Source: Arthrobacter sp. MA-N2
Lineage (GTDB): Bacteria; Actinomycetota; Actinomycetes; Actinomycetales; Micrococcaceae
Length of the DNA: 64,000 bases
Reading direction: 5' to 3'
NCBI RefSeq assembly: GCF_000517125.1
Contig: NZ_KI912155.1
Location: forward strand, 373,707-437,706
Position numbers and translations under genes: made by a program. Position 1 is the first letter of the stretch; each line of letters begins with the position of its first letter. The notes under the pieces were generated by a model that saw only the letters and a list, made by a program, of their open reading frames with translations, ran no database searches and had not been told where the DNA came from. Positions 46,594 through 64,000 of this stretch are shown here, one piece after another.

Positions 46594-48002
46594 GTTGACT
46601 CATTGAAAACCTCCGCGTAGCCGGATACGTTGCCTCATTTGAAAACCTCCGTGTAGCGGCGTGGTTCGCAATTGTGGCGGCGGTTGGGGGCTATGCCCGT
46701 TTTCATGGAGCTAACGATGGCCCAGCGGCAAGCTGTGACGAAGAAGAAGGCCCTCGCCTATAAGGGTGCTGATCGTGCAGGGAAGTCCCGGATCTTGAAC
46801 GAACTGGTCGAGCTGACCGGTTGGCACCGCGACTACGCCCGGGCGGCGTTGCGGGATGCCCTGGTGTTGAAGATCGTCAGACCACGCCCGGGCAGGACCG
46901 CGGTCTACGGGCCTGATCTGCTGCCTGCCCTCATCAAGTGCTGGGCCGTGCTGCGCGCCCCTGCCGGCAGGCTGCTGGCCCCGATGCTGCCTGTCCTGGT
47001 CCCGCTGCTGCGCAGGGACCGGGAGCTTGAGCTGACCGATGAACAGGCCGGACTGCTGATGCGGATGAGCGCAGCGACCATCGACCGGAAACTCGCCGGC
47101 GAACGGGCAAAACTTTTCCCGCGGGGACGGTCCCATACCAAGCCGGGCACGCTGCTCAAATCCCAGATCCCGGTCCGCACCTGGGCCGAGTGGGATGACG
47201 CCGTCCCGGGGTTCGTGGAGATCGACCTGGTGGGCCACGAGGGAGGCAACAGCTTCGGCGAGTTCTGCTGCACCCTGACCGTGACGGACATCGCCACGGG
47301 CTGGACCGTGAACCGGTCGGTGCGGAACAAGGCCGCCAAATGGGTCTTCGAGGCCCTCGAACACGTCACTGCCGTGTTCCCGTTCCCGATCATCGGCATC
47401 GATTCAGACAACGGTTCCGAGTTCATCAACGAGCATCTGCTGGCCTACTGCCACGCGCACGAGATCACCTTCACCCGCTCCCGGCCCGGCAACAAAAACG
47501 ACGGAGCCCACGTGGAGCAGAAGAACTGGGCCAGGGTCCGGGAACTGGTCGGCTACCTGCGCTACGACACCGACGCGGAACTGGCCAAACTCAACGAGAT
47601 CTGGGAGCTGGACCGTGTCTTCACCAACTACCTGCTGCCGCAGCAGAAGCTACTCTCCAAGCAGCGGCACGGCGCGAAAGTCACGAAGAAACACGACGCC
47701 CCCGCCACACCCCACCAACGCGCGATCCGGCATGAACGGATGAACAAACGCCCGGTCATCCAGATGAACGCCGCCTTCAAACGCATCAAGCCCGGAGCCC
47801 TTTCCCGCGAGATCCTGGCGCTTACCGGGCAGCTGGAAACACTGGCCTTAGCCAAGAAACCAGCACCCCTCAAACCCGTCAACCGCGCCTGGAACAGCTA
47901 GGCCTCGCGGAGGCTCTTCAACGAGGCAACGAAACCACCCATCCGGAGGTTTTCAAATGAGGCAACGTATTACTCTTCCCGGAGGTATTGCAATGAGTCA
48001 AC
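46594..48002 (+). mobile_element. Insertion sequence, about 1.4 kb, DDE/rve integrase type
   Basis: The outer ends are inverted: GTTGACTCATTGAAAACC at 46594 pairs with its imperfect complement ending at 48002. Just inside, a second and perfect 25-bp inverted pair is found at 46627-46651 and 47944-47968, which carries the same CATTTGAAAACCTCCG core. Each end thus holds two copies of the transposase-recognition-like motif. One transposase gene fills the element. No clear target-site duplication is visible (flanks TGGCCCGC and AGGGGCCA). The family resembles rve-type IS elements placed in ISNCY/IS481-like groups; exact assignment is not possible here. Confidence 0.85.
46693..47901 (+). CDS. Transposase with integrase (rve) core
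   Basis: 402 aa, intact. The N-terminal 75 residues include a helix-turn-helix (KSRILNELVELTGWHRDYARAAL). The DDE core reads VEIDLVGHEGG (first Asp), GIDSDNGSEFINEH (second Asp) and the C-terminal catalytic Glu in NKNDGAHVEQKNW. A basic tail follows (KVTKKHDAPATPHQRAIRHERMNKRP). ATG 46693 is chosen over GTG 46672 and ATG 46705 on the GGTTGGGGGCT purine-rich stretch. An intact frame and good terminal repeats suggest the element may still be active. Confidence 0.88.
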   Translation: MPVFMELTMAQRQAVTKKKALAYKGADRAGKSRILNELVELTGWHRDYARAALRDALVLKIVRPRPGRTAVYGPDLLPALIKCWAVLRAPAGRLLAPMLPVLVPLLRRDRELELTDEQAGLLMRMSAATIDRKLAGERAKLFPRGRSHTKPGTLLKSQIPVRTWAEWDDAVPGFVEIDLVGHEGGNSFGEFCCTLTVTDIATGWTVNRSVRNKAAKWVFEALEHVTAVFPFPIIGIDSDNGSEFINEHLLAYCHAHEITFTRSRPGNKNDGAHVEQKNWARVRELVGYLRYDTDAELAKLNEIWELDRVFTNYLLPQQKLLSKQRHGAKVTKKHDAPATPHQRAIRHERMNKRPVIQMNAAFKRIKPGALSREILALTGQLETLALAKKPAPLKPVNRAWNS

Positions 48003-53792: not shown

Positions 53793-54161
53793 TCAGAGCA
53801 AAGAAACCAGCCCGACGCCGGCCGCTGCGGCTCCCACGCAAGCGGCCATGGTGCCCACTCCATTGAGGAGGGCCAGGCCCGTCCGGCCGCTCTGGATGAG
53901 CCTGACGGTTTCAAGGCTTGCCGTGCTGAACGTCGTGTATCCGCCAAGGAATCCGGTGCCGAGAATCAACTGCAGGGACTCGGGTGCCTGCCTTGTCATC
54001 ACCAGCCCGGCCAAGATCCCCATAAGCAGCGAGCCGGAAACGTTGATGAAGATGGTGCCCAGAGGCAGCGCAGTCCTGGCCCAGGAACGGACAAGTCCAT
54101 CCATTACGAACCGGGCGGCCGCACCTGCGCCGCCCGCGAGTGCGATCAGAAGGATGGTCAT
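53793..54161 (-). CDS. crcB: Fluoride channel subunit CrcB/Fluc
   Basis: 122 aa, four helices. The family motifs are present: GGAGAAARF near the N-terminus, FINVSGSLLMG (Asn of the pore) and GTGFLGGYTTFST (the TYTTFST segment that lines the pore). Its start overlaps the preceding crcB stop by ATGA, so the two subunits are made together and probably form a heterodimer that exports F-. Confidence 0.93.
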   Translation of the reverse strand: MTILLIALAGGAGAAARFVMDGLVRSWARTALPLGTIFINVSGSLLMGILAGLVMTRQAPESLQLILGTGFLGGYTTFSTASLETVRLIQSGRTGLALLNGVGTMAACVGAAAAGVGLVSLL

Positions 54162-54661
54162 GGCGGGCTGTTCCGTTTCTTTTCGGCGGATTTGTGCCGA
54201 AAGGCTCCAAGCCAAATACCGAGGGTAGTGGCCGCTGCACCGCCAAATAGGCTAGCCGCGAGGTACCAGACAGCGTCCATTCCGCGTCCTGCGCCGAAGA
54301 GATGCACCGAGTCCAGGGCCAGGGTGCTGTAGGTGGTGTAGGCACCGAGGAAGCCACTTCCGATGCCCAACCGGGCAACCCGCCGGAGACCGGCGTCGGG
54401 ACCGCTCCGGGCGAGTTCTTCGAGGAGCCAGCCAAGCGCCAGCGCGCCCGTCAGATTGATGAGCAAGGTGGGCAGCGGCCACCCATCTGGCGCCGGAAGG
54501 GCCATGCCAAATCCGTAGCGGCTCGAAGCCCCCAGGATTCCCCCGGCCGCGACAAGCAGAACGAACGGTCCGTGCAGATGGAGCGGGCGGTGCGAAGGCC
54601 TGTCAGTCGGGGGCGCCTCCGGAGTTTTGGCGCCGGTCGGTGCGGTGCTGCTGTCCTTCAT
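54158..54661 (-). CDS. crcB: Fluoride channel subunit CrcB/Fluc, long N-tail
   Basis: 167 aa. A 30-residue Pro/Thr-rich N-tail (MKDSSTAPTGAKTPEAPPTD) precedes the CrcB fold: GGILGASSRYGFG, LINLTGALALGWL and GSGFLGAYTTYST. The two CrcB paralogs face the same membrane with probably opposite topology, as in known two-gene Fluc systems. Its ATG overlaps the usp stop. Confidence 0.93.
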   Translation of the reverse strand: MKDSSTAPTGAKTPEAPPTDRPSHRPLHLHGPFVLLVAAGGILGASSRYGFGMALPAPDGWPLPTLLINLTGALALGWLLEELARSGPDAGLRRVARLGIGSGFLGAYTTYSTLALDSVHLFGAGRGMDAVWYLAASLFGGAAATTLGIWLGAFRHKSAEKKRNSPP

Positions 54662-56456: not shown

Positions 56457-58781
56457 CTAAAGCCGGGTGTCGAACGAATCGCAGAACACGTTCTCGTTGA
56501 ACGTTCCCTGGAACTCGGACTTGCCCTGGATCTTCTGGATGGTCGCCCGGATGGCCTCGCGAGTGCCTGCATGGGCGTTGATGGCAGTCTTGACCATCGG
56601 CACATCGATCAGGTGGTTCGGCTGGTTCAGGGAGACGAACACCGTGGGCACTTCCGTGACGTACCAAGGGATTTCCGCGGCCATGGGGCTCGACCATTTG
56701 ATGCGGATGGCGGCCTCCTGGGCGAAGCCCTTGACGTTCGCAAAGACGAATGCTGCGTCGTACTTGTCCGCATAGTCGCCGGTGGCCTCGTCGGAGATGA
56801 CGCTCATGAAGTTCACGCCGGTCTCCCCCGCGGCTTCACGCTGCTCCGCCGTCTTGAAGACATGGACTTCGAAACCGGCGCTTTCCAGTTCCTCCTGCAC
56901 GGTGTCCAGATAGGCCAGCGGATCCGCCCGCGTGAAATCGGAACCGCCGGAGATGCCGTACAGGCGAATACGCTTGTGCGTTTCCGAGGTGATGGGCAGG
57001 TTCCGGGCCGTGTCCTTGATGAGCGTGACGGTCTTGTCCGCAATTTCGGCGGCGACGGCGAGGTGGGCTTCGCTGCCAATCAGCTGCAGGGCCTCGGGCG
57101 ACGGAGTCAATTCTTCCGGAAGCTTCTTATGCAGCCCCAGGCTCGCCTTCAGTGCGAGGATGCGGCGCAGGGCGTCATGCAAACGCTGCTCGGTGATCAC
57201 GCCGGATTTGTAGCCGTCCATCATGTACTGGAAGTCCTCCGCGGGGTTGCGGAAGAACAGGAACATGTCGCAGCCGGCCGCGATGGTGGCCGGAACCAGG
57301 TCCTTGCGCCTCATGGCCTGGGTAAGGCCCACCATCTGCGATGCGTCCGTCAGGATCAGCCCGTTGAAGCCGAGCTCGCCACGGAGCAGGTCCTGGAGGA
57401 GCTCCGGAGCCAAGGTGGCGGGCCGGATGTCCGCGTCCACCGTGCCTGGCCGGAAATGCCTGGACAATTCCGGTGCCCCGATGTGCCCGACCATGATCGA
57501 TTGGACCCCATGGCCGATCATTTCCCGGTACACGTGCCCATAGCTGGAATTCCAGTCCGCGTAACCGAGCGTGTTGTGGGAAGTGACCACGTGCTGGTCG
57601 CGTTCGTCGATGCCGTCGCCCGGGAAGTGTTTGATGGCGCATACGGTGGGCGATTCGCTGATGCCGTCGAAGTATTCCTTGGCACGCTCCACCACGATTT
57701 CCGGCGTATTGCCGAAGGCGCGGGTGGAGATGACGGTGTTGCGCCAGTTGTAGTGGATGTCAACAATGGGCGCGAAGGCCCAGTTGCAGCCCAAGGCCGC
57801 AGTCTCCACTCCGGCCACTTGGCCCATCTTCCGGGCGATGGACTTGTCCGGGTGCGAACCGGCCTGCAGGTGGGTCGACACGAACGTTCCGTCGTCGCAG
57901 CTTCCGGCTCCCCCCATTTCCGGGTTGGAGGCCACCAGGAGCGGGATGCGCGTTTTGGACTGGGCATAGCGGATGTGCTGCTGCACGGCAGCGGACGGGC
58001 CCGGCCTGTACCGCATGCCGCCCACGTGAAAGTTCTCCAGCACACCGTCGAGATACTCCGGAGAGTAGTCGTTGTTGTGGTTGATGAAGAGCTGCCCGAT
58101 CTTCTCCTCAAGGCCCATGCCCTCGATCGTCGAGTGCACCCACGCGACGGCCTCGTCGTCGAGGGTGAACGGCGCCGCCCGGAGGTCGACGTCGAACTGG
58201 CGCGCTTGGGTGCCCGGAGCGCCCGCTCGGCTGCCCGCCCGGGCCATGGAACCGGCGACGGCGGCAATGCCGGCTAGCGCCTCGGCCACCACCTGGTTGA
58301 CCGGGGCGGCGATGTCCACGACGATACCGGTCTCGTCGACGTCGAGCGGTTCCAGCGTGGCGAGCTGTGATTCAAGGAGGGCAGGCGGCATGAAGTGGCC
58401 GGAACGGCCTTCCGTCCGTTCCTTAAGCACCTCTTTACTGCCATGCAGGTGCAGGAAGACGGTGTCCGGCGCCTGTGCCCGGATGGCGTCCCGGTAGCTA
58501 CGACGCAGGGCCGAGCAGGCAAGTACCAACCCGCCATCCCCCGCATTCGCGAGTTCGGTACCCACGGTGGCCAGCCACGGCCAGCGGTCTTCGTCGGTCA
58601 GCGGGATACCGGCAGCCATTTTGGCGACGTTCTCCACGGGGTGGAGCGAATCGCCGTCGAGGAACGGCACCCCGAGTTCCCGGGCAACAAGGTCCCCGAT
58701 GGTGGTCTTGCCGCAGCCGGACACGCCCATGACCACAATGCGGCGTGGCGTTGCCGCGGCAATGTCCCGGTCCCCCGTCAT
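56457..58781 (-). CDS. Fusion protein: gluconokinase domain plus glycoside hydrolase family 3
   Basis: 774 aa in one uninterrupted frame. Residues 13-175 form a complete GntK-type gluconokinase (P-loop GVSGCGKTT at 19-27, DGDSLHP, CSALRRSYRD, GRSGHFMPPALLESQ). After an Ala/Gly/Arg linker (about 178-200) comes a whole GH3 enzyme of NagZ-like type: KHFPGDG at 384-390 with Asp395/His397 as the acid/base dyad, and Asp479 in LILTDASQMVG as nucleophile. ATG 58781 follows AGGAA at 7 nt and is 10 nt past manD, in whose operon it lies. Both halves keep their catalytic residues. It may cleave a beta-linked uronide or amino-sugar and phosphorylate a released sugar acid, but the substrate is unknown. Confidence 0.9.
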   Translation of the reverse strand: MTGDRDIAAATPRRIVVMGVSGCGKTTIGDLVARELGVPFLDGDSLHPVENVAKMAAGIPLTDEDRWPWLATVGTELANAGDGGLVLACSALRRSYRDAIRAQAPDTVFLHLHGSKEVLKERTEGRSGHFMPPALLESQLATLEPLDVDETGIVVDIAAPVNQVVAEALAGIAAVAGSMARAGSRAGAPGTQARQFDVDLRAAPFTLDDEAVAWVHSTIEGMGLEEKIGQLFINHNNDYSPEYLDGVLENFHVGGMRYRPGPSAAVQQHIRYAQSKTRIPLLVASNPEMGGAGSCDDGTFVSTHLQAGSHPDKSIARKMGQVAGVETAALGCNWAFAPIVDIHYNWRNTVISTRAFGNTPEIVVERAKEYFDGISESPTVCAIKHFPGDGIDERDQHVVTSHNTLGYADWNSSYGHVYREMIGHGVQSIMVGHIGAPELSRHFRPGTVDADIRPATLAPELLQDLLRGELGFNGLILTDASQMVGLTQAMRRKDLVPATIAAGCDMFLFFRNPAEDFQYMMDGYKSGVITEQRLHDALRRILALKASLGLHKKLPEELTPSPEALQLIGSEAHLAVAAEIADKTVTLIKDTARNLPITSETHKRIRLYGISGGSDFTRADPLAYLDTVQEELESAGFEVHVFKTAEQREAAGETGVNFMSVISDEATGDYADKYDAAFVFANVKGFAQEAAIRIKWSSPMAAEIPWYVTEVPTVFVSLNQPNHLIDVPMVKTAINAHAGTREAIRATIQKIQGKSEFQGTFNENVFCDSFDTRL

Positions 58782-58791
58782 GGCTTCGTTC

Positions 58792-60021
58792 CTACCAGTC
58801 ATGAACGGTGCCGTCCACAAGGCGGTTGTACGGCAGGTAGGCCTGCTGGTACGGGAAGGAATTGGCGGCTTCTTCGTTGAATTCGACGCCGATACCGGGC
58901 TTGTCGCCCGGGTGCAGGTAGCCGTCCTTGAACGTCATGGACTGTTCGAAGACCGTATTGGTCTTGTCCGAGTGCTGCATGTATTCCTGGATGCCGTAGT
59001 TGTGAATGGCCAGGCCCACGTGCAGCTGCGCGGCGAAGCCGACCGGGGAAATGTCGGTGGGGCCGTGGAAGCCGGACTTGATCTGGTACTGCGCGGCGAA
59101 GTCCATGACCTTCTTCAACGGCGAGATTCCGCCGAAGTGCGTGGACGCGGCACGGACGTAGTCGATCAGCTGCTCCTTGATGAGCGTCTGGAAGTCGTAC
59201 ACGGTGTTGAAGATCTCGCCGATGGCGAGCGGCGTGGTGGTGTGCTGACGGACCAGGCGCAGCCCTTCCTGGTTCTCGGCCGGGGTGCAGTCCTCGAGCC
59301 AGAAAAGATCGTATGGCTCCAGGGCCTTGCCGAGCTTGGCTGCCTGGATGGGAGTCATACGGTGGTGGCCATCGTGCAGCAGCGGGATTTCCGGGCCGAA
59401 CTCGTTGCGCACGGCTTCGAAAACGGTAGGCAGGTGCCGGAGGTAGGCGCGGGTGTCCCAGTCCTCTTCCTGCGGGAAGGCACCCCGGCCGGCGGGTTCG
59501 TAGTCGTAGCGCTCGCCCGAGGCCTGCGCCTGCGCGGCCACGCCGTACACGGCTTTGATGCCGGGGATGGCGGTTTGGATACGGATGGACTTGTAACCGA
59601 GCTCCAGGTGCTCCCGGACCGAGTCGAACAGGGAAGGGGTGTCCGCGCCCGAGGCGTGCCCATAAGCGCGCAGGCCGTTGCGGGACGCGCCGCCGAGGAG
59701 CTGGTAGACCGGCAGGCCGGCGACCTTGCCCTTGATGTCCCACAGGGCCATGTCGACGGCGGCGATCGCGGCCATCGTGACGGGGCCGCGGCGCCAGTAC
59801 GAGGACCGGTACAGGAACTGCCAGGTATCCTCGATCCGATGCGGGTCCTTGCCGATCAGCAGCTGCGCGACGTGTTCCTTCAAGTACGCCGCGACCGCAA
59901 GTTCACGGCCGTTGAGCGTCGCGTCGCCGATGCCGGTGACTCCCTCATCCGTAGTGATGCGGAGAGTGACGAAGTTGCGGGTGGGGCTGGTCACGAAGAC
60001 TTCCGCGGCAACGATTTTCAC
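58792..60021 (-). CDS. manD: D-mannonate dehydratase, ManD/RspA type (enolase superfamily)
   Basis: 409 aa. The sequence follows E. coli RspA closely: [26 protein letters not shown] at the N-terminus, [64 protein letters not shown] and AIGEIFNT, with the metal ligands Asp/Glu/Glu in these segments. It dehydrates D-mannonate to 2-keto-3-deoxygluconate (by family; some members act on gluconate or have low activity). GTG 60021 follows AAAGGA. A LacI-type operator lies at its -35. Followed by the fused kinase-hydrolase. Confidence 0.92.
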
Positions 60022-60098
60022 AGCTGGTCCTTTCAAGGTTGCTGTTCGAGGGCTGGCCTGACCCGGATGCGAGGTGCACCACAGGGCGGGTAAAGATG

Positions 60099-60135
60099 AT
60101 CTTAGGGCGGATGACAATTATTGGCAACCGGTTGC
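60099..60135 (-). promoter_or_regulatory. manD promoter with LacI-type operator
   Basis: TTGCCA (60127 down to 60122), 17 bp, TAAGAT (60104 down to 60099) forms the promoter. The perfect 12-bp palindrome GCAACCGGTTGC (60124-60135), with CG at its centre as in LacI/GalR sites, overlaps the -35 box. The design matches that of the symporter promoter. Confidence 0.7.
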
Positions 60136-60203
60136 AGTAGTTATTTTCCAGAACCTGCTGTTATTTGGCAGAAACTCTTTCTGACGGGTCCGCTTCCCCC
60201 CAG

Positions 60204-61592
60204 TCACCTCGTGGGGACCACGCTGGCGGCGTCCGCGCGAGAGGATGTTCCGCCGCGTGCTTCCAGAGGGCGGCGGGCCTTGATCTCGCCTAGGATTTCG
60301 GCGTGGAACGCATCGGTCAGTTTGTACTTGGCCATCACGACGATGGCAAGGATGGTCATGATGGCAGGCAGGGCACCTGCGGCGAATTGGATGGCCTGTA
60401 GTGATTCGGCGCTGTGGGTGGCGCCGGACTTGTACCCGCCGGCCGCGAGGGCGTAAGCAGCAAGGGCGCCACCCACAGCCTGGCCCGTCTTGCGGGTGAA
60501 GGAGAACAGCGCGTAGGTGATGCCTTCAGTCCGGACACCGGTCTTCCACTCGCCATATTCCACAGTGTCTGCCTCGAGCGCCCACACGACGATGTTGATG
60601 GCCATGACACCGACCATACTCAGGAGGAGGCCCGAGTAGCCGACCCAGACCATGGCCGCCGGGGCGAAGAACACGATCCCGCCGCCCACCACGGAGAGGG
60701 CCCCGGCCACCACGTAGATGGTCTTCTTGCCGAAGTTCCGAACGAGCCTCGGCAAGAGCGGCGCAAGGCTAAAAGTCACCAGCAACTGGACGATGGAAAG
60801 CACCGCGTAGAGGTCCAGCCGGCCCAGGACGTCGCGCAAGTAGTAGAGCTGCACGGACGACAGTGCCATGTAGCCGGTCAGGAAGAGGAAGGAGCTCAGG
60901 CACAGCATAAGCAATGGACGGTTGGTCTTGAGCGTCTCCATGCTCTGCTTGAAGGAAACCTTGGGTACCGAGCGGTGGACGCGCTCCTTCGCCGTCAGGA
61001 AGGTGAAGAAGTACAGGGCGGCGCCGATCACGACGAAGACCAGGGTGATCGTGGTGAACAGGGACTGCAGATTGGCACCAGGCTTGATCAGGGGCGCAAC
61101 AAAGATGCCGAGGGCCGAACTGACCAGGAGGGCGCCAACCATGCGGGCGGACCCCAGCTTGGCACGCTCGCCGGGGTCCTGGGTCATAGCGCCCGCCAAG
61201 GAACCGTAGGGGATGTTCACCAGCGAGTAGGCCAGGCCCAAGGCCGCGTATGTCACGTAGGCGTAGAGCAGCATTCCCGTGTGGCCGATCTGCGGCACGG
61301 AAAAGGCCGCAACGCTCAGGAGCAACAAGGGAAATGACCCAAACATGATGAACGGGCGGAACTTTCCGAAACGCTTGCTGAAGGCGCGGTCAACGAGCCG
61401 TCCCGCAAAGACGTCCGCAAAGGCGTCGAAGATCCGCACAGTGAGCAACAGGGTGCCGGCTGCCGCCGCAGAGATCCCTGCCACGTCGGTGTAGTAGACC
61501 AGCAGGAACATGGTGGCCGTGGTGAAGGCAAGGTTGTTGGCGGCGTCGCCAGCTCCATAACCTAAGATGCTGAGTTTGCTGAGCTTGTTCAT
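60204..61592 (-). CDS. GPH-family sugar symporter (glucuronide/hexuronate type)
   Basis: 462 aa, 12 predicted helices. The N-terminus LSILGYGAGDAANNLAFTTATMFLLVYYTDVAG is the glycoside-pentoside-hexuronide:cation symporter signature (MelB/UidB-like). Its relatives import beta-glucuronides, xylosides or melibiose with H+ or Na+. ATG 61592 follows AAAGGAG. Surrounded by uronate genes, it probably brings in a glucuronide or free uronate. A LacI-type operator lies about 120 bp upstream. Confidence 0.92.
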   Translation of the reverse strand: MNKLSKLSILGYGAGDAANNLAFTTATMFLLVYYTDVAGISAAAAGTLLLTVRIFDAFADVFAGRLVDRAFSKRFGKFRPFIMFGSFPLLLLSVAAFSVPQIGHTGMLLYAYVTYAALGLAYSLVNIPYGSLAGAMTQDPGERAKLGSARMVGALLVSSALGIFVAPLIKPGANLQSLFTTITLVFVVIGAALYFFTFLTAKERVHRSVPKVSFKQSMETLKTNRPLLMLCLSSFLFLTGYMALSSVQLYYLRDVLGRLDLYAVLSIVQLLVTFSLAPLLPRLVRNFGKKTIYVVAGALSVVGGGIVFFAPAAMVWVGYSGLLLSMVGVMAINIVVWALEADTVEYGEWKTGVRTEGITYALFSFTRKTGQAVGGALAAYALAAGGYKSGATHSAESLQAIQFAAGALPAIMTILAIVVMAKYKLTDAFHAEILGEIKARRPLEARGGTSSRADAASVVPTR

Positions 61593-61684: not shown

Positions 61685-61722
61685 AATTCTAATCACTTCG
61701 GCAACCATTCGGCAAGCGGTTG
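61685..61722 (-). promoter_or_regulatory. Symporter promoter with LacI-type operator
   Basis: A TTGCCG -35 (61714 down to 61709), an 18-bp spacer and TAGAAT (61690 down to 61685) form the promoter. GCAAGCGGTTGC (61711-61722), a one-mismatch version of the manD operator, overlaps the -35, and an extra half-site CGGCAACC is at about 61698-61705. The remaining parts of 61593-62068 hold repeats and a terminator. Confidence 0.65.
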
Positions 61723-61893
61723 CCAAAAGTTTCCATATATTTTCGCACACCCCTTATAGCGCACGGGAGGTTGAGGGCACACGAGCGGGCGTTCGGCATC
61801 ACCTGCGCTGAGACGCTCAATCACAAGACGTGAAGGAGCGTCGAGCGAAATCCCTTCGAAAGCGAGCGGGCGTTTGCAAAAAGGCGGCCAAAA

Positions 61894-62068: not shown

Positions 62069-63487
62069 TTAGCTGAGGTGTCCGGCGTCCGCGAAGGTCT
62101 CGGACAAACCGGCTATGAGCTCCACGATTCCGGAGTCGGCGCTCAGCTCCGGATCCAGGACGTCCAGTAGGGCTTCGAGCCGGGCACGGCCGGAGAGCAG
62201 ATTGGCGGCGGCAATGTTAGCCGCTTGTGGGTCCTGCAGGCCGGTGGCCGTTGCGGTGTAGGCGGACCAGGCCGCGATCATCCGCGCAGCCGCTTGTCCG
62301 CTGCGGCCGGCAGCGCGCTCGGCGCGAAGCACGGGCAATGCCCGCATGCGCAGTTTGGCACTGCCGTCCATGGCAATCTGGGCCAGGTGGTGCGCTATCC
62401 GGGAGTTGCCGAAGCGCTCCAGGAGGGCGGCCCGGTACTCGGGGATGTGCAAGTCCGCACCGTCAAGGTTGGCGGCGGCCTCGTCCCAGAAGTCCTCCAC
62501 TGCCCGGCGGCAGGAATCGTCGGCGAGGGCCTCGGCCACCGTCTTGTATCCGCGCAGCTGGCCGGCATAGGCCAGGAGCGAGTGGGCGCCGTTGAGGAGC
62601 CACAGCTTGCGGTTCTCGTAAGGCTCGATCTCGTCGACGAAAACGGCGCCAGCGTCTTCCCAGCGGGGACGCCCCGCTGGGAAGCCTCCGCTGAGGACCC
62701 AGTTATGGAAGGGCTCGGTGACCACGGGAGATTCGTCGCGGTATCCGCAGGCTGCGGCGACGGCGTCGATATCGGCGTCTGTGGTTCGTGGCGTGATGCG
62801 ATCAACGGAAGTGCTGACGAAACTGACGTTGGCGTCGACCCAAGCGGCGAGGCCGGCGTCGAACGCCTTGGCCATCCCCATCACGGCGCTTCTTGCAACT
62901 GTCCCGTTGTTGGAGAGGTTGTCGCAGCAGACCACGGCAAGGGGGCCGGCGTCGGAGTCGCGGCGGGCGGCGAGGCCCAGCACCAGGCGGCCCAGCGGCG
63001 TCGTCGGCTTGCTGGAGGCAGGGCCGGCACCGCCAGAGAGCAAAGCGAGGTCTGCGGCGACGTCCGGCGCCCGGCTGTCCAGCTTGCCGTCAACGCCGAG
63101 CCGGTAAGCCGCCTCGGTGATGGTCAGGGTGATGAGCGAAGTCAGCGGCGCGGCGACAAGCTCGACAAAACGGTCGACGTCGGCACCATCGACGGCTTCC
63201 ACAATGCTGGCGATGACCTCGAAGGAATCACCGGCGTCCGCGCGCTCCACCACGGTGTAAAGACCGTCCTGTGCGGCCAGGACCTCCGCGGCGTCGGGCC
63301 GACGTCCGGTGAAGGCGGCGATGCCCCAGTCCGCCGCATCGCCGGCGTGCTGGGTGTACCAGGCCTGGTGCGAGCGGTGGAAAGCACCCAGCCCCATGTG
63401 CACAATCCGCACGGGGGCCTTGCCAAGGGGCCGGACGGCACGATTCAAGCGGGGAAGGTCGGCGGGCTGCTTCGGCTCGGTGGTCAC
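62069..63487 (-). CDS. uxuB: Fructuronate reductase / mannitol dehydrogenase family
   Basis: 472 aa, long-chain polyol dehydrogenase. An N-terminal NAD fold (APVRIVHMGLGAFHRSHQAWY) is followed by the all-helical catalytic domain with KLWLLNGAHSLLAYAGQLRG, where Lys, Asn and His are catalytic. The neighbours make fructuronate-to-mannonate reduction (UxuB) the best role rather than mannitol oxidation. GTG 63487 overlaps the uxaC stop (GTGA). The open frame runs upstream through uxaC, but the Rossmann fold defines the start. Confidence 0.92.
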   Translation of the reverse strand: MTTEPKQPADLPRLNRAVRPLGKAPVRIVHMGLGAFHRSHQAWYTQHAGDAADWGIAAFTGRRPDAAEVLAAQDGLYTVVERADAGDSFEVIASIVEAVDGADVDRFVELVAAPLTSLITLTITEAAYRLGVDGKLDSRAPDVAADLALLSGGAGPASSKPTTPLGRLVLGLAARRDSDAGPLAVVCCDNLSNNGTVARSAVMGMAKAFDAGLAAWVDANVSFVSTSVDRITPRTTDADIDAVAAACGYRDESPVVTEPFHNWVLSGGFPAGRPRWEDAGAVFVDEIEPYENRKLWLLNGAHSLLAYAGQLRGYKTVAEALADDSCRRAVEDFWDEAAANLDGADLHIPEYRAALLERFGNSRIAHHLAQIAMDGSAKLRMRALPVLRAERAAGRSGQAAARMIAAWSAYTATATGLQDPQAANIAAANLLSGRARLEALLDVLDPELSADSGIVELIAGLSETFADAGHLS

Positions 63488-64000
63488 AGCTTGAAAACCC
63501 TTCGAGGTGAAGAGTCGACGACGTCGACGATCAATTCGTGCGCGCGGTCTTCGCTGACGCGGTGCTCCGCGACGAGGCGCGCCAGGAACGAAGCTTCGAT
63601 CCGGCGGGAGGCGTCGTGCCGGGCGGGGATGGAGCAGAAGGCGCGGGTGTCGTCGATGAAGCCAGACGAGCGGGAGAAGCCGGTGGTTTCGGTCACGGCC
63701 GAACGGAAGCGCAGCATCGCATCCGGGGCGTCCAGGAACCACCACGGTGCGCCGAGGTACACGGAGGGGTAGAACCCTGCAAGCGGGGCCAGCTCGCGGG
63801 AGAATACGGTCTCGTCCAGGGTGAACAGGACCAGATGGAAGTCCTTGGCCGTGCCGAAGTCCTGCAGCAACGGCCGGATCGCCTCGGTGTAGTTGGTCGC
63901 GAACGGGATGTCGTGACCGGTGTCCGCGCCGTACGCGTCGAAGGTGGGCTGGTGGTGGTTGCGGAAGGAACCGGGATGGATGGTCATGACCAAGCCATCT
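63484..64000 (-). CDS. uxaC: Glucuronate isomerase, C-terminal part (cut by window edge)
   Basis: About 172 C-terminal residues are visible and the frame continues past the right edge. The segment TIHPGSFRNHHQPTFDAYGADTGHDIPF and LGAPWWFLDAPDAMLRFRSAVTETTGFSRSSGFIDDTRAFCSIPARHD are hallmarks of UxaC (amidohydrolase-like fold), which converts D-glucuronate to D-fructuronate. It is translationally coupled to uxuB and gives the first step of the pathway. Confidence 0.93.
   Translation of the reverse strand, partial: DGLVMTIHPGSFRNHHQPTFDAYGADTGHDIPFATNYTEAIRPLLQDFGTAKDFHLVLFTLDETVFSRELAPLAGFYPSVYLGAPWWFLDAPDAMLRFRSAVTETTGFSRSSGFIDDTRAFCSIPARHDASRRIEASFLARLVAEHRVSEDRAHELIVDVVDSSPRRVFKL

Follow-up and report, generated by a model that had tools for sequence, protein, structure and literature searches.

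A single gene on the minus strand of a 64,000-nucleotide stretch of the Arthrobacter sp. MA-N2 genome (contig NZ_KI912155.1; the whole stretch is referred to here as the window) encodes a GntK-type kinase fused to a glycoside hydrolase family 3 (GH3) enzyme, and lies in an operon for glucuronate catabolism. The gene runs from an ATG at 58781 to a TAG ending at 56457 as one open frame with 0 internal stops, as stated in the original prediction, which had described the two domains as joined without a stop. Residues 15-170 match the NCBIfam gluconokinase model TIGR01313 (186.1 bits, cut-off 113.75), and residues 224-543 match the GH3 N-terminal domain model PF00933 (186.2 bits, cut-off 27, E 1.3e-54). 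An AlphaFold2 model shows two halves separated by a disordered linker at residues 179-194 (mean predicted local distance difference test score [pLDDT] 86.6, predicted template modeling score [pTM] 0.73). The features of the fusion are as follows:

56457..58781, minus strand: fusion gene, GntK-type kinase plus GH3 (774 residues plus TAG)
58272..58739, minus strand: kinase domain, residues 15-170 (TIGR01313 match)
58200..58247, minus strand: disordered linker core, residues 179-194 (pLDDT <50)
57153..58112, minus strand: GH3 N-terminal barrel domain, residues 224-543 (PF00933 match)
58011..58013, minus strand: Arg257, candidate carboxylate-binding residue (suggested by an Arg/Met split among relatives)
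57591..57599, minus strand: Asp395/His397 acid/base dyad (alignment with BglP)
57345..57347, minus strand: Asp479 nucleophile (alignment with BglP)
56460..57026, minus strand: C-terminal alpha/beta domain of the GH3 half, approximately residues 586-774 (full-length 5VQD/5VQE match and model secondary structure)

The fusion was found as a single open frame, with at least 93% of the query covered, in 41 of 61 genomes of the genus including its own, and broken pieces were present in two further genomes (G051 and G053). When a wider set of named genomes was scanned, the best 80 of 119 relatives were retained as named loci (L051 and L052 are one strain, and L178 repeats L124). A scripted check placed a kinase in frame upstream of GH3 in 68 of these 80; L069, L101, L106, and L111 are counted among the 68 though their frames are broken. 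The 12 loci without an in-frame kinase are L104, L109, L110, L112, L113, L115, L117, and L120-L124, and separate kinase and GH3 genes in the same order were seen in five of the 80. Among the matches listed for 38 genomes of other families, the fused form was found in none, and a clear stand-alone GH3 relative was found in G062, G086, and G088. The GH3 half was detected in 21 of 245 genomes of a family sample (E 1e-90), 29 of 396 of an order sample (E 1e-80), and 1 of 396 of a phylum sample (E 1e-80), the last being its own genome. Comparison of the window with eight fused orthologues gave ratios of nonsynonymous to synonymous substitution (dN/dS) of 0.08-0.15 for the kinase, 0.26-0.61 for the linker, and 0.03-0.12 for the two GH3 parts, demonstrating purifying selection on both halves. 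An assembly artefact or frameshift was rejected on the basis of the single frame in independent assemblies and of this selection; together with gene decay, for which the frame breaks in a few copies could be cited, it has a negligible probability. The fusion is thus a genuine, conserved two-domain protein of Micrococcaceae, assembled from two domain families that are already known. No description of a kinase-GH3 architecture, and no paper combining "gluconokinase," "glycoside hydrolase family 3," and "fusion," was found in the searched literature, which is weak evidence as most subscription papers lie outside its scope.

The operon is ordered lacI, uxaC, uxuB, GPH transporter, manD, fusion, and manD ends 10 nt upstream of the fusion gene, confirming the placement given in the original prediction. 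The neighboring genes and predicted regulatory sites in the window are:

58792..60033, minus strand: manD, D-mannonate dehydratase (NF043051, 687 bits, cut-off 550)
60123..60136, no strand assigned: predicted LacI-type operator upstream of the manD-fusion unit (pattern search)
60204..61592, minus strand: UidB-type glucuronide transporter, GPH family (NF007353, 633 bits, cut-off 528)
61711..61724, no strand assigned: predicted LacI-type operator upstream of the transporter (pattern search)
62069..63490, minus strand: uxuB-like fructuronate reductase, start approximate (below equivalog cut-offs)
63484..64000, minus strand: uxaC, glucuronate isomerase, 3-prime part, continuing beyond the window

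UxaC, UxuB, and ManD convert glucuronate to 2-keto-3-deoxygluconate (KDG), and gluconate is not an intermediate of this route. Related operons elsewhere carry different combinations of the same parts. In G010, of the same genus, uxaC, uxuB, a GH2 beta-glucuronidase (890.8 bits, cut-off 544), a transporter, manD, and a stand-alone gntK occur together; in G883, from another family, GH3 is clustered with a GPH transporter, uxuB-like, uxuA, eda, and uxaC genes and a PfkB kinase; and in G062 it adjoins genes for a GH2 beta-glucuronidase (802.5 bits against the same cut-off of 544) and a GPH transporter. Loci L031 and L207 (genomes G049 and G008) contain uxaC, uxuB, manD, and gntK, and no GH3 match was obtained at either fetched locus. 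A kinase of the same clade as the fused one follows manD in uronate operons devoid of GH3, at L031, L207, and L030 (the last with a GH2 glucuronidase instead). This arrangement ties the kinase half to ManD, whose expected product is KDG, and goes against the original suggestion of a kinase acting on the acid that derives from the sugar freed by GH3.

Among solved structures, the GH3 half is closest to the beta-glucoside phosphorylase BglX/BglP (PDB 5VQD, 5VQE), a stand-alone enzyme that aligns with the entire half at 36.6% identity (203/555) and matches it over its full length in a fold search (5VQE; Z 59.5, root-mean-square deviation 1.9, 548 residues). Each of the two fold searches gave at least 50 matches, and the 50 listed for each are on the GH3 half; for the kinase half, the comparison with solved structures was one of sequence only. 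The catalytic residues named in the original prediction, Asp395/His397 and Asp479, are present and align with identical residues of 5VQD, the two proteins having the same D-Q-H dyad and TDA nucleophile motif; the alignment shows a His/Asp dyad in place of Glu/Asp. BglX/BglP is described in a review as acting on glucosides (PMC8950772). NagZ proper was rejected as an assignment, the PRK05337 score of 106.9 bits being below the cut-off of 207. A more distant relative, SN243 (PDB 7QEA, 7QE1), shares the GH3 fold at 19% identity (Z 33.9); going by the PDB titles it has no kinase and was solved with a beta-glucuronide ligand, which provides a precedent for beta-glucuronidase activity in GH3.

Position 257 lies within a predicted strand (residues 255-258) and, in the model, would be at a level like that of K384/H385 and D479. 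Arginine occupies this position in 25 of 26 GH3s of the fusion-holding branch (Cys in L082) and in 4/4 of the f3 branch, in contrast to the methionine of BglP, which is also found in all 12 GH3s with a beta-phosphoglucomutase (beta-PGM) nearby and in L023, L024, and L196. This distribution suggests that Arg257 could bind a carboxylate. In family f9, where 13 of 15 GH3 places were examined, a beta-PGM is encoded in frame N-terminal to the related GH3 at seven of the 13 loci (L184, L185, L187, L188, L189, L190, and L192), and the beta-PGM domain of the L184 protein was confirmed by a model match. This apparent second fusion in the GH3 branch would fit a retaining phosphorylase and supports phosphorolysis in f9.

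The whole kinase domain matches GntK/IdnK-type gluconokinases (TIGR01313; PDB 3T61, 4EUN, 1KNQ), from which the fused kinase differs in its attachment to GH3 and in forming a clade apart from the GntP-linked GntKs. The equivalog gluconokinase models were not satisfied (PRK11545, 132.9 of 265 bits; PRK09825, 127.9 of 304 bits). Two other GntK genes of the MA-N2 genome adjoin GntP permeases, and among 30 comparison loci collected by similarity to one of them a GntP-like gene was present in 27 and manD in none. A kinase tree was built from 115 of 158 copies, after removal of 41 near-duplicate or broken loci (L133 restored) and of copies shorter than 140 residues. It separates 82 rows, in which all fused kinases are joined by unfused relatives from such operons, from 33 rows with support of 100/94; the latter consist of 31 GntP-type rows plus the kinases encoded next to manD in L201 and L203. 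Of 76 loci that contain uxaC or uxuB, 69 have gntK only, three a PfkB-type kdgK only, none both, and four neither (among these four, L181 and L217 are truncated and L219 represents a piece of the G010 cluster), a count that is no test with independent cases because the loci are related and were mostly collected by GH3 similarity. The PfkB-type KdgK, which belongs to another kinase family and would have the same function as that proposed for the fused kinase, occurs in the related uronate clusters L182, L209, and L216.

Both trees bear on the history of the fusion, with the caution that their deep order is unsafe owing to long branches. Neighboring but separate manD, gntK, and gh3 genes, with the order kept, occur in L109, L110, L113, L115, and L117, and in L109 the gntK stop lies approximately 35 bases ahead of the GH3 start; the fusion would accordingly have joined two adjacent genes of a manD-gntK-gh3 array. 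These five loci and L118 also have, downstream of GH3, a further gntK whose product shares 66-72% identity with the window kinase and forms its own clade. The L115 record is titled Sporosarcina beigongshangi and has a typical Arthrobacter-type operon, and its label or assembly may be wrong. On the kinase tree the fused kinases fall into two lineages, each also having unfused members, and six changes are needed for the fused state; a single origin of the fused kinases was therefore rejected. L049 and L079 are 56-57% identical to the window in the kinase half and 88-90% identical in the GH3 half. The GH3 tree, a quick search with Shimodaira-Hasegawa-like approximate likelihood ratio test (SH-aLRT) support only, comprised 77 rows after 14 loci, GH3s shorter than 540 residues, and every second type-II fusion had been dropped. 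Because the L049 and L105 GH3s, which carry kinase lineage I, nest among those carrying lineage II, kinase exchange within an existing fusion would be the simplest reading of these sequences, although separate fusions are possible. L104 and L041 have a GH3 with a linker-like N terminus and no kinase match, away from the uronate operon, which looks like later loss. Genes resembling FAD monooxygenase and DhaK (labels by eye) lie close to these two GH3s.

Regulatory sequences provide a further connection between the GH3 and glucuronate genes. A partly palindromic site near GGCAACCGGTTGCC occurs upstream of uxaC, the transporter, and manD, and a genome-wide search (4.83 Mb) with the pattern DGCAACCGRTTGHM gave four distinct sites, every one of them within the uronate cluster, as compared to one for the reversed-pattern control. 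The predicted LacI-type operator thereby links the uxaC, transporter, and manD-fusion units of the operon. In the named loci plus L178, counting up to two mismatches within 300 nt upstream, the site precedes uxaC in 50 of 62 cases, the transporter in 33/42, and uidA in 9/9; values for lacI (8/41), gfo1 (3/32), sugPE1 (6/19), and uxuB (0/61) were obtained in the same way. Mononucleotide shuffling of 20 uxaC regions yielded 0.005 sites per region. Six of 81 GH3 genes have the site directly upstream, namely the stand-alone GH3s of Microbacteriaceae L120-L124 and the repeat L178. In G943, also Microbacteriaceae, one site lies between a TIM-barrel gene and uxaC, approximately 11 kb from a GH3 that has its own. 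Operator sharing by uxaC and stand-alone GH3s ties GH3 to the glucuronate regulon in Micrococcaceae and Microbacteriaceae and not beyond. An operator-like site was also seen upstream of an aldose 1-epimerase family gene at L243 (G943:C4:135949), away from the GH3 cluster.

Taken together, the best joint explanation, which we put forward tentatively and at a little short of an even chance, is that the fusion is a bifunctional enzyme of glucuronide catabolism. Beta-glucuronides would be imported by the neighboring GPH transporter and cleaved by the GH3 half, with hydrolysis more likely than phosphorolysis; the glucuronate so formed would be taken to KDG by UxaC, UxuB, and ManD; and the fused GntK-type kinase would convert KDG to 2-keto-3-deoxy-6-phosphogluconate (KDPG), replacing the PfkB-type KdgK. 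The first and last dedicated steps of the pathway would thus be coupled in one protein, possibly to some benefit, and in many Arthrobacter-type soil bacteria the fusion probably covers these two steps in the breakdown of glucuronic acid-tagged compounds. The beta-glucuronidase assignment is suggested by genomic context, the operator, and Arg257, and a uronic acid glycoside, of which the original prediction had considered a disaccharide, is a likely GH3 substrate. A more elaborate form of the proposal is possible but somewhat doubtful: a phosphorylase-type GH3 would have been made glucuronide-cleaving by the Arg at the end of strand 255-258 and linked to a KDG kinase of the GntK family in place of KdgK; two kinase lineages with only approximately 57% identity would occupy the same fused position, the fusion being kept by selection while the kinase was exchanged; and, given the parallel beta-PGM::GH3 fusions of a related family, this GH3 branch would be one on which fusions recur.

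Since the closest solved relative of the GH3 half is a phosphorylase, both hydrolysis and phosphorolysis are in play. A glucuronide phosphorylase would use phosphate to form beta-glucuronate 1-phosphate and would require a further enzyme. The dyad is shared with BglP and, according to a review, marks GH3 phosphorylases (PMC8950772), and beta-PGM occurs next to, or in fusion with, related GH3s. However, free glucuronate is required by UxaC, the window operon genes (L026) gave no beta-PGM match, and Arg257 marks branches without beta-PGM. A HAD-like open reading frame after GH3 in G883 (306 aa, label by eye) might supply the additional enzyme, but it matched no NCBIfam family at 1e-20. Hydrolysis is preferred on the first two of these grounds, and the phosphorylase is considered unlikely.

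Rather improbable, too, is a true gluconokinase acting in sequence with a GH3 that frees gluconate, for example from an aldobionate, so that both halves serve one substrate. The model that the kinase matches is that of the gluconokinase subfamily, and the beta-PGM partner in f9 acts on the expected GH3 product, which suggests that N-terminal partners in this GH3 branch are pathway partners and lends this alternative some weight. It is countered by the same-clade kinases behind manD in operons without GH3, by the two GntP-adjoining GntK genes that the genome already has, and by the absence of gluconate from the UxaC-UxuB-ManD route. We assign a similarly small probability to a GH3 with a non-uronic glycoside as substrate, in which case its membership in the uronate regulon would reflect mixed substrates, together with the Gfo/Idh and TIM-barrel genes of the cluster. 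A GH2 beta-glucuronidase is present along with GH3 in some uronate loci, the direct neighbors of the Microbacteriaceae GH3s are Gfo/Idh, TIM-barrel, and ABC genes, and Arg257 is found outside recognizable uronate contexts; yet the operator is common to GH3 and uxaC in G943, and GH3 occurs in uronate operons of several families.

Several observations weigh against a KDG kinase fused to a beta-glucuronidase. With respect to GH3, a GH2 beta-glucuronidase coexists with it in 9 of 68 GH3-holding uronate loci, which also weakens a simple replacement of UidA by GH3. Arg257 is additionally present in L025, L028, L029, L193, and L195, is replaced by Cys in L082, and occurs in L179 of the fusion-holding branch with no uronate genes seen nearby, and may therefore mark hydrolysis instead. 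With respect to the kinase, the L201 and L203 enzymes group with the GntP-type kinases in the tree, so manD linkage alone does not define the clade, and the L202 kinase has a very long branch. Outside uronate operons the either-or pattern of gntK and kdgK breaks down, since a kdgK shares a cluster with gntK or the fusion in L201, L203, and L060, along with an enolase-superfamily dehydratase, and a KDG/KDGal-type PfkB kinase (182-189 bits against cut-offs of 400-440) is encoded beside eda on contig C3 of the MA-N2 genome. For the operator, KGCAACCGNTTGMC, drawn from the three sites, found no fourth in 4.83 Mb while its reversed control gave three hits; only 17 of 63 manD-fusion units have the site upstream; and at up to three mismatches the window holds seven sites against 6.4 expected, rendering weak matches meaningless. 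The one site found in each of G080 and G883 is not within the respective uronate cluster, neither of two in G973 is at GH3, and one in G012 and two in G022 are located elsewhere. The loci themselves, gathered mostly by GH3 similarity, are mutually related and are not independent cases.

Should the proposed function prove correct, entry into a catabolic pathway and exit from it would be joined in a single assayable protein, GH3 would have a second glucuronide-active branch whose specificity residue could be tested, and KDG kinase would be the proper name for many of the "gluconokinases" encoded beside manD. The separate, fused, and kinase-swapped natural forms would constitute a series for measuring the value of fusion.

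Upstream of lacI, beyond the window end, lie two Gfo/Idh oxidoreductase and two PF01261 TIM-barrel genes (L026:13813-17890). Such genes are also near GH3 in L120-L124 and L182, some with the same predicted operator. LgdA, LgdB1, LgdB2, and LgdC are described in PMC7676230 and PMC10066097 as a levoglucosan breakdown set, and by analogy the Gfo/Idh and TIM-barrel genes possibly form an oxidative route for cleaving glycosides. In L060, which is metagenome-assembled, the genes preceding the fusion are a dgoD-like one, eda, kdgK, and manD, and recombination or misassembly at manD is possible. Elsewhere in the window, a transposase-like open reading frame (46672-47901) and two adjacent CrcB-like small membrane proteins (53793-54661) were labeled by eye.

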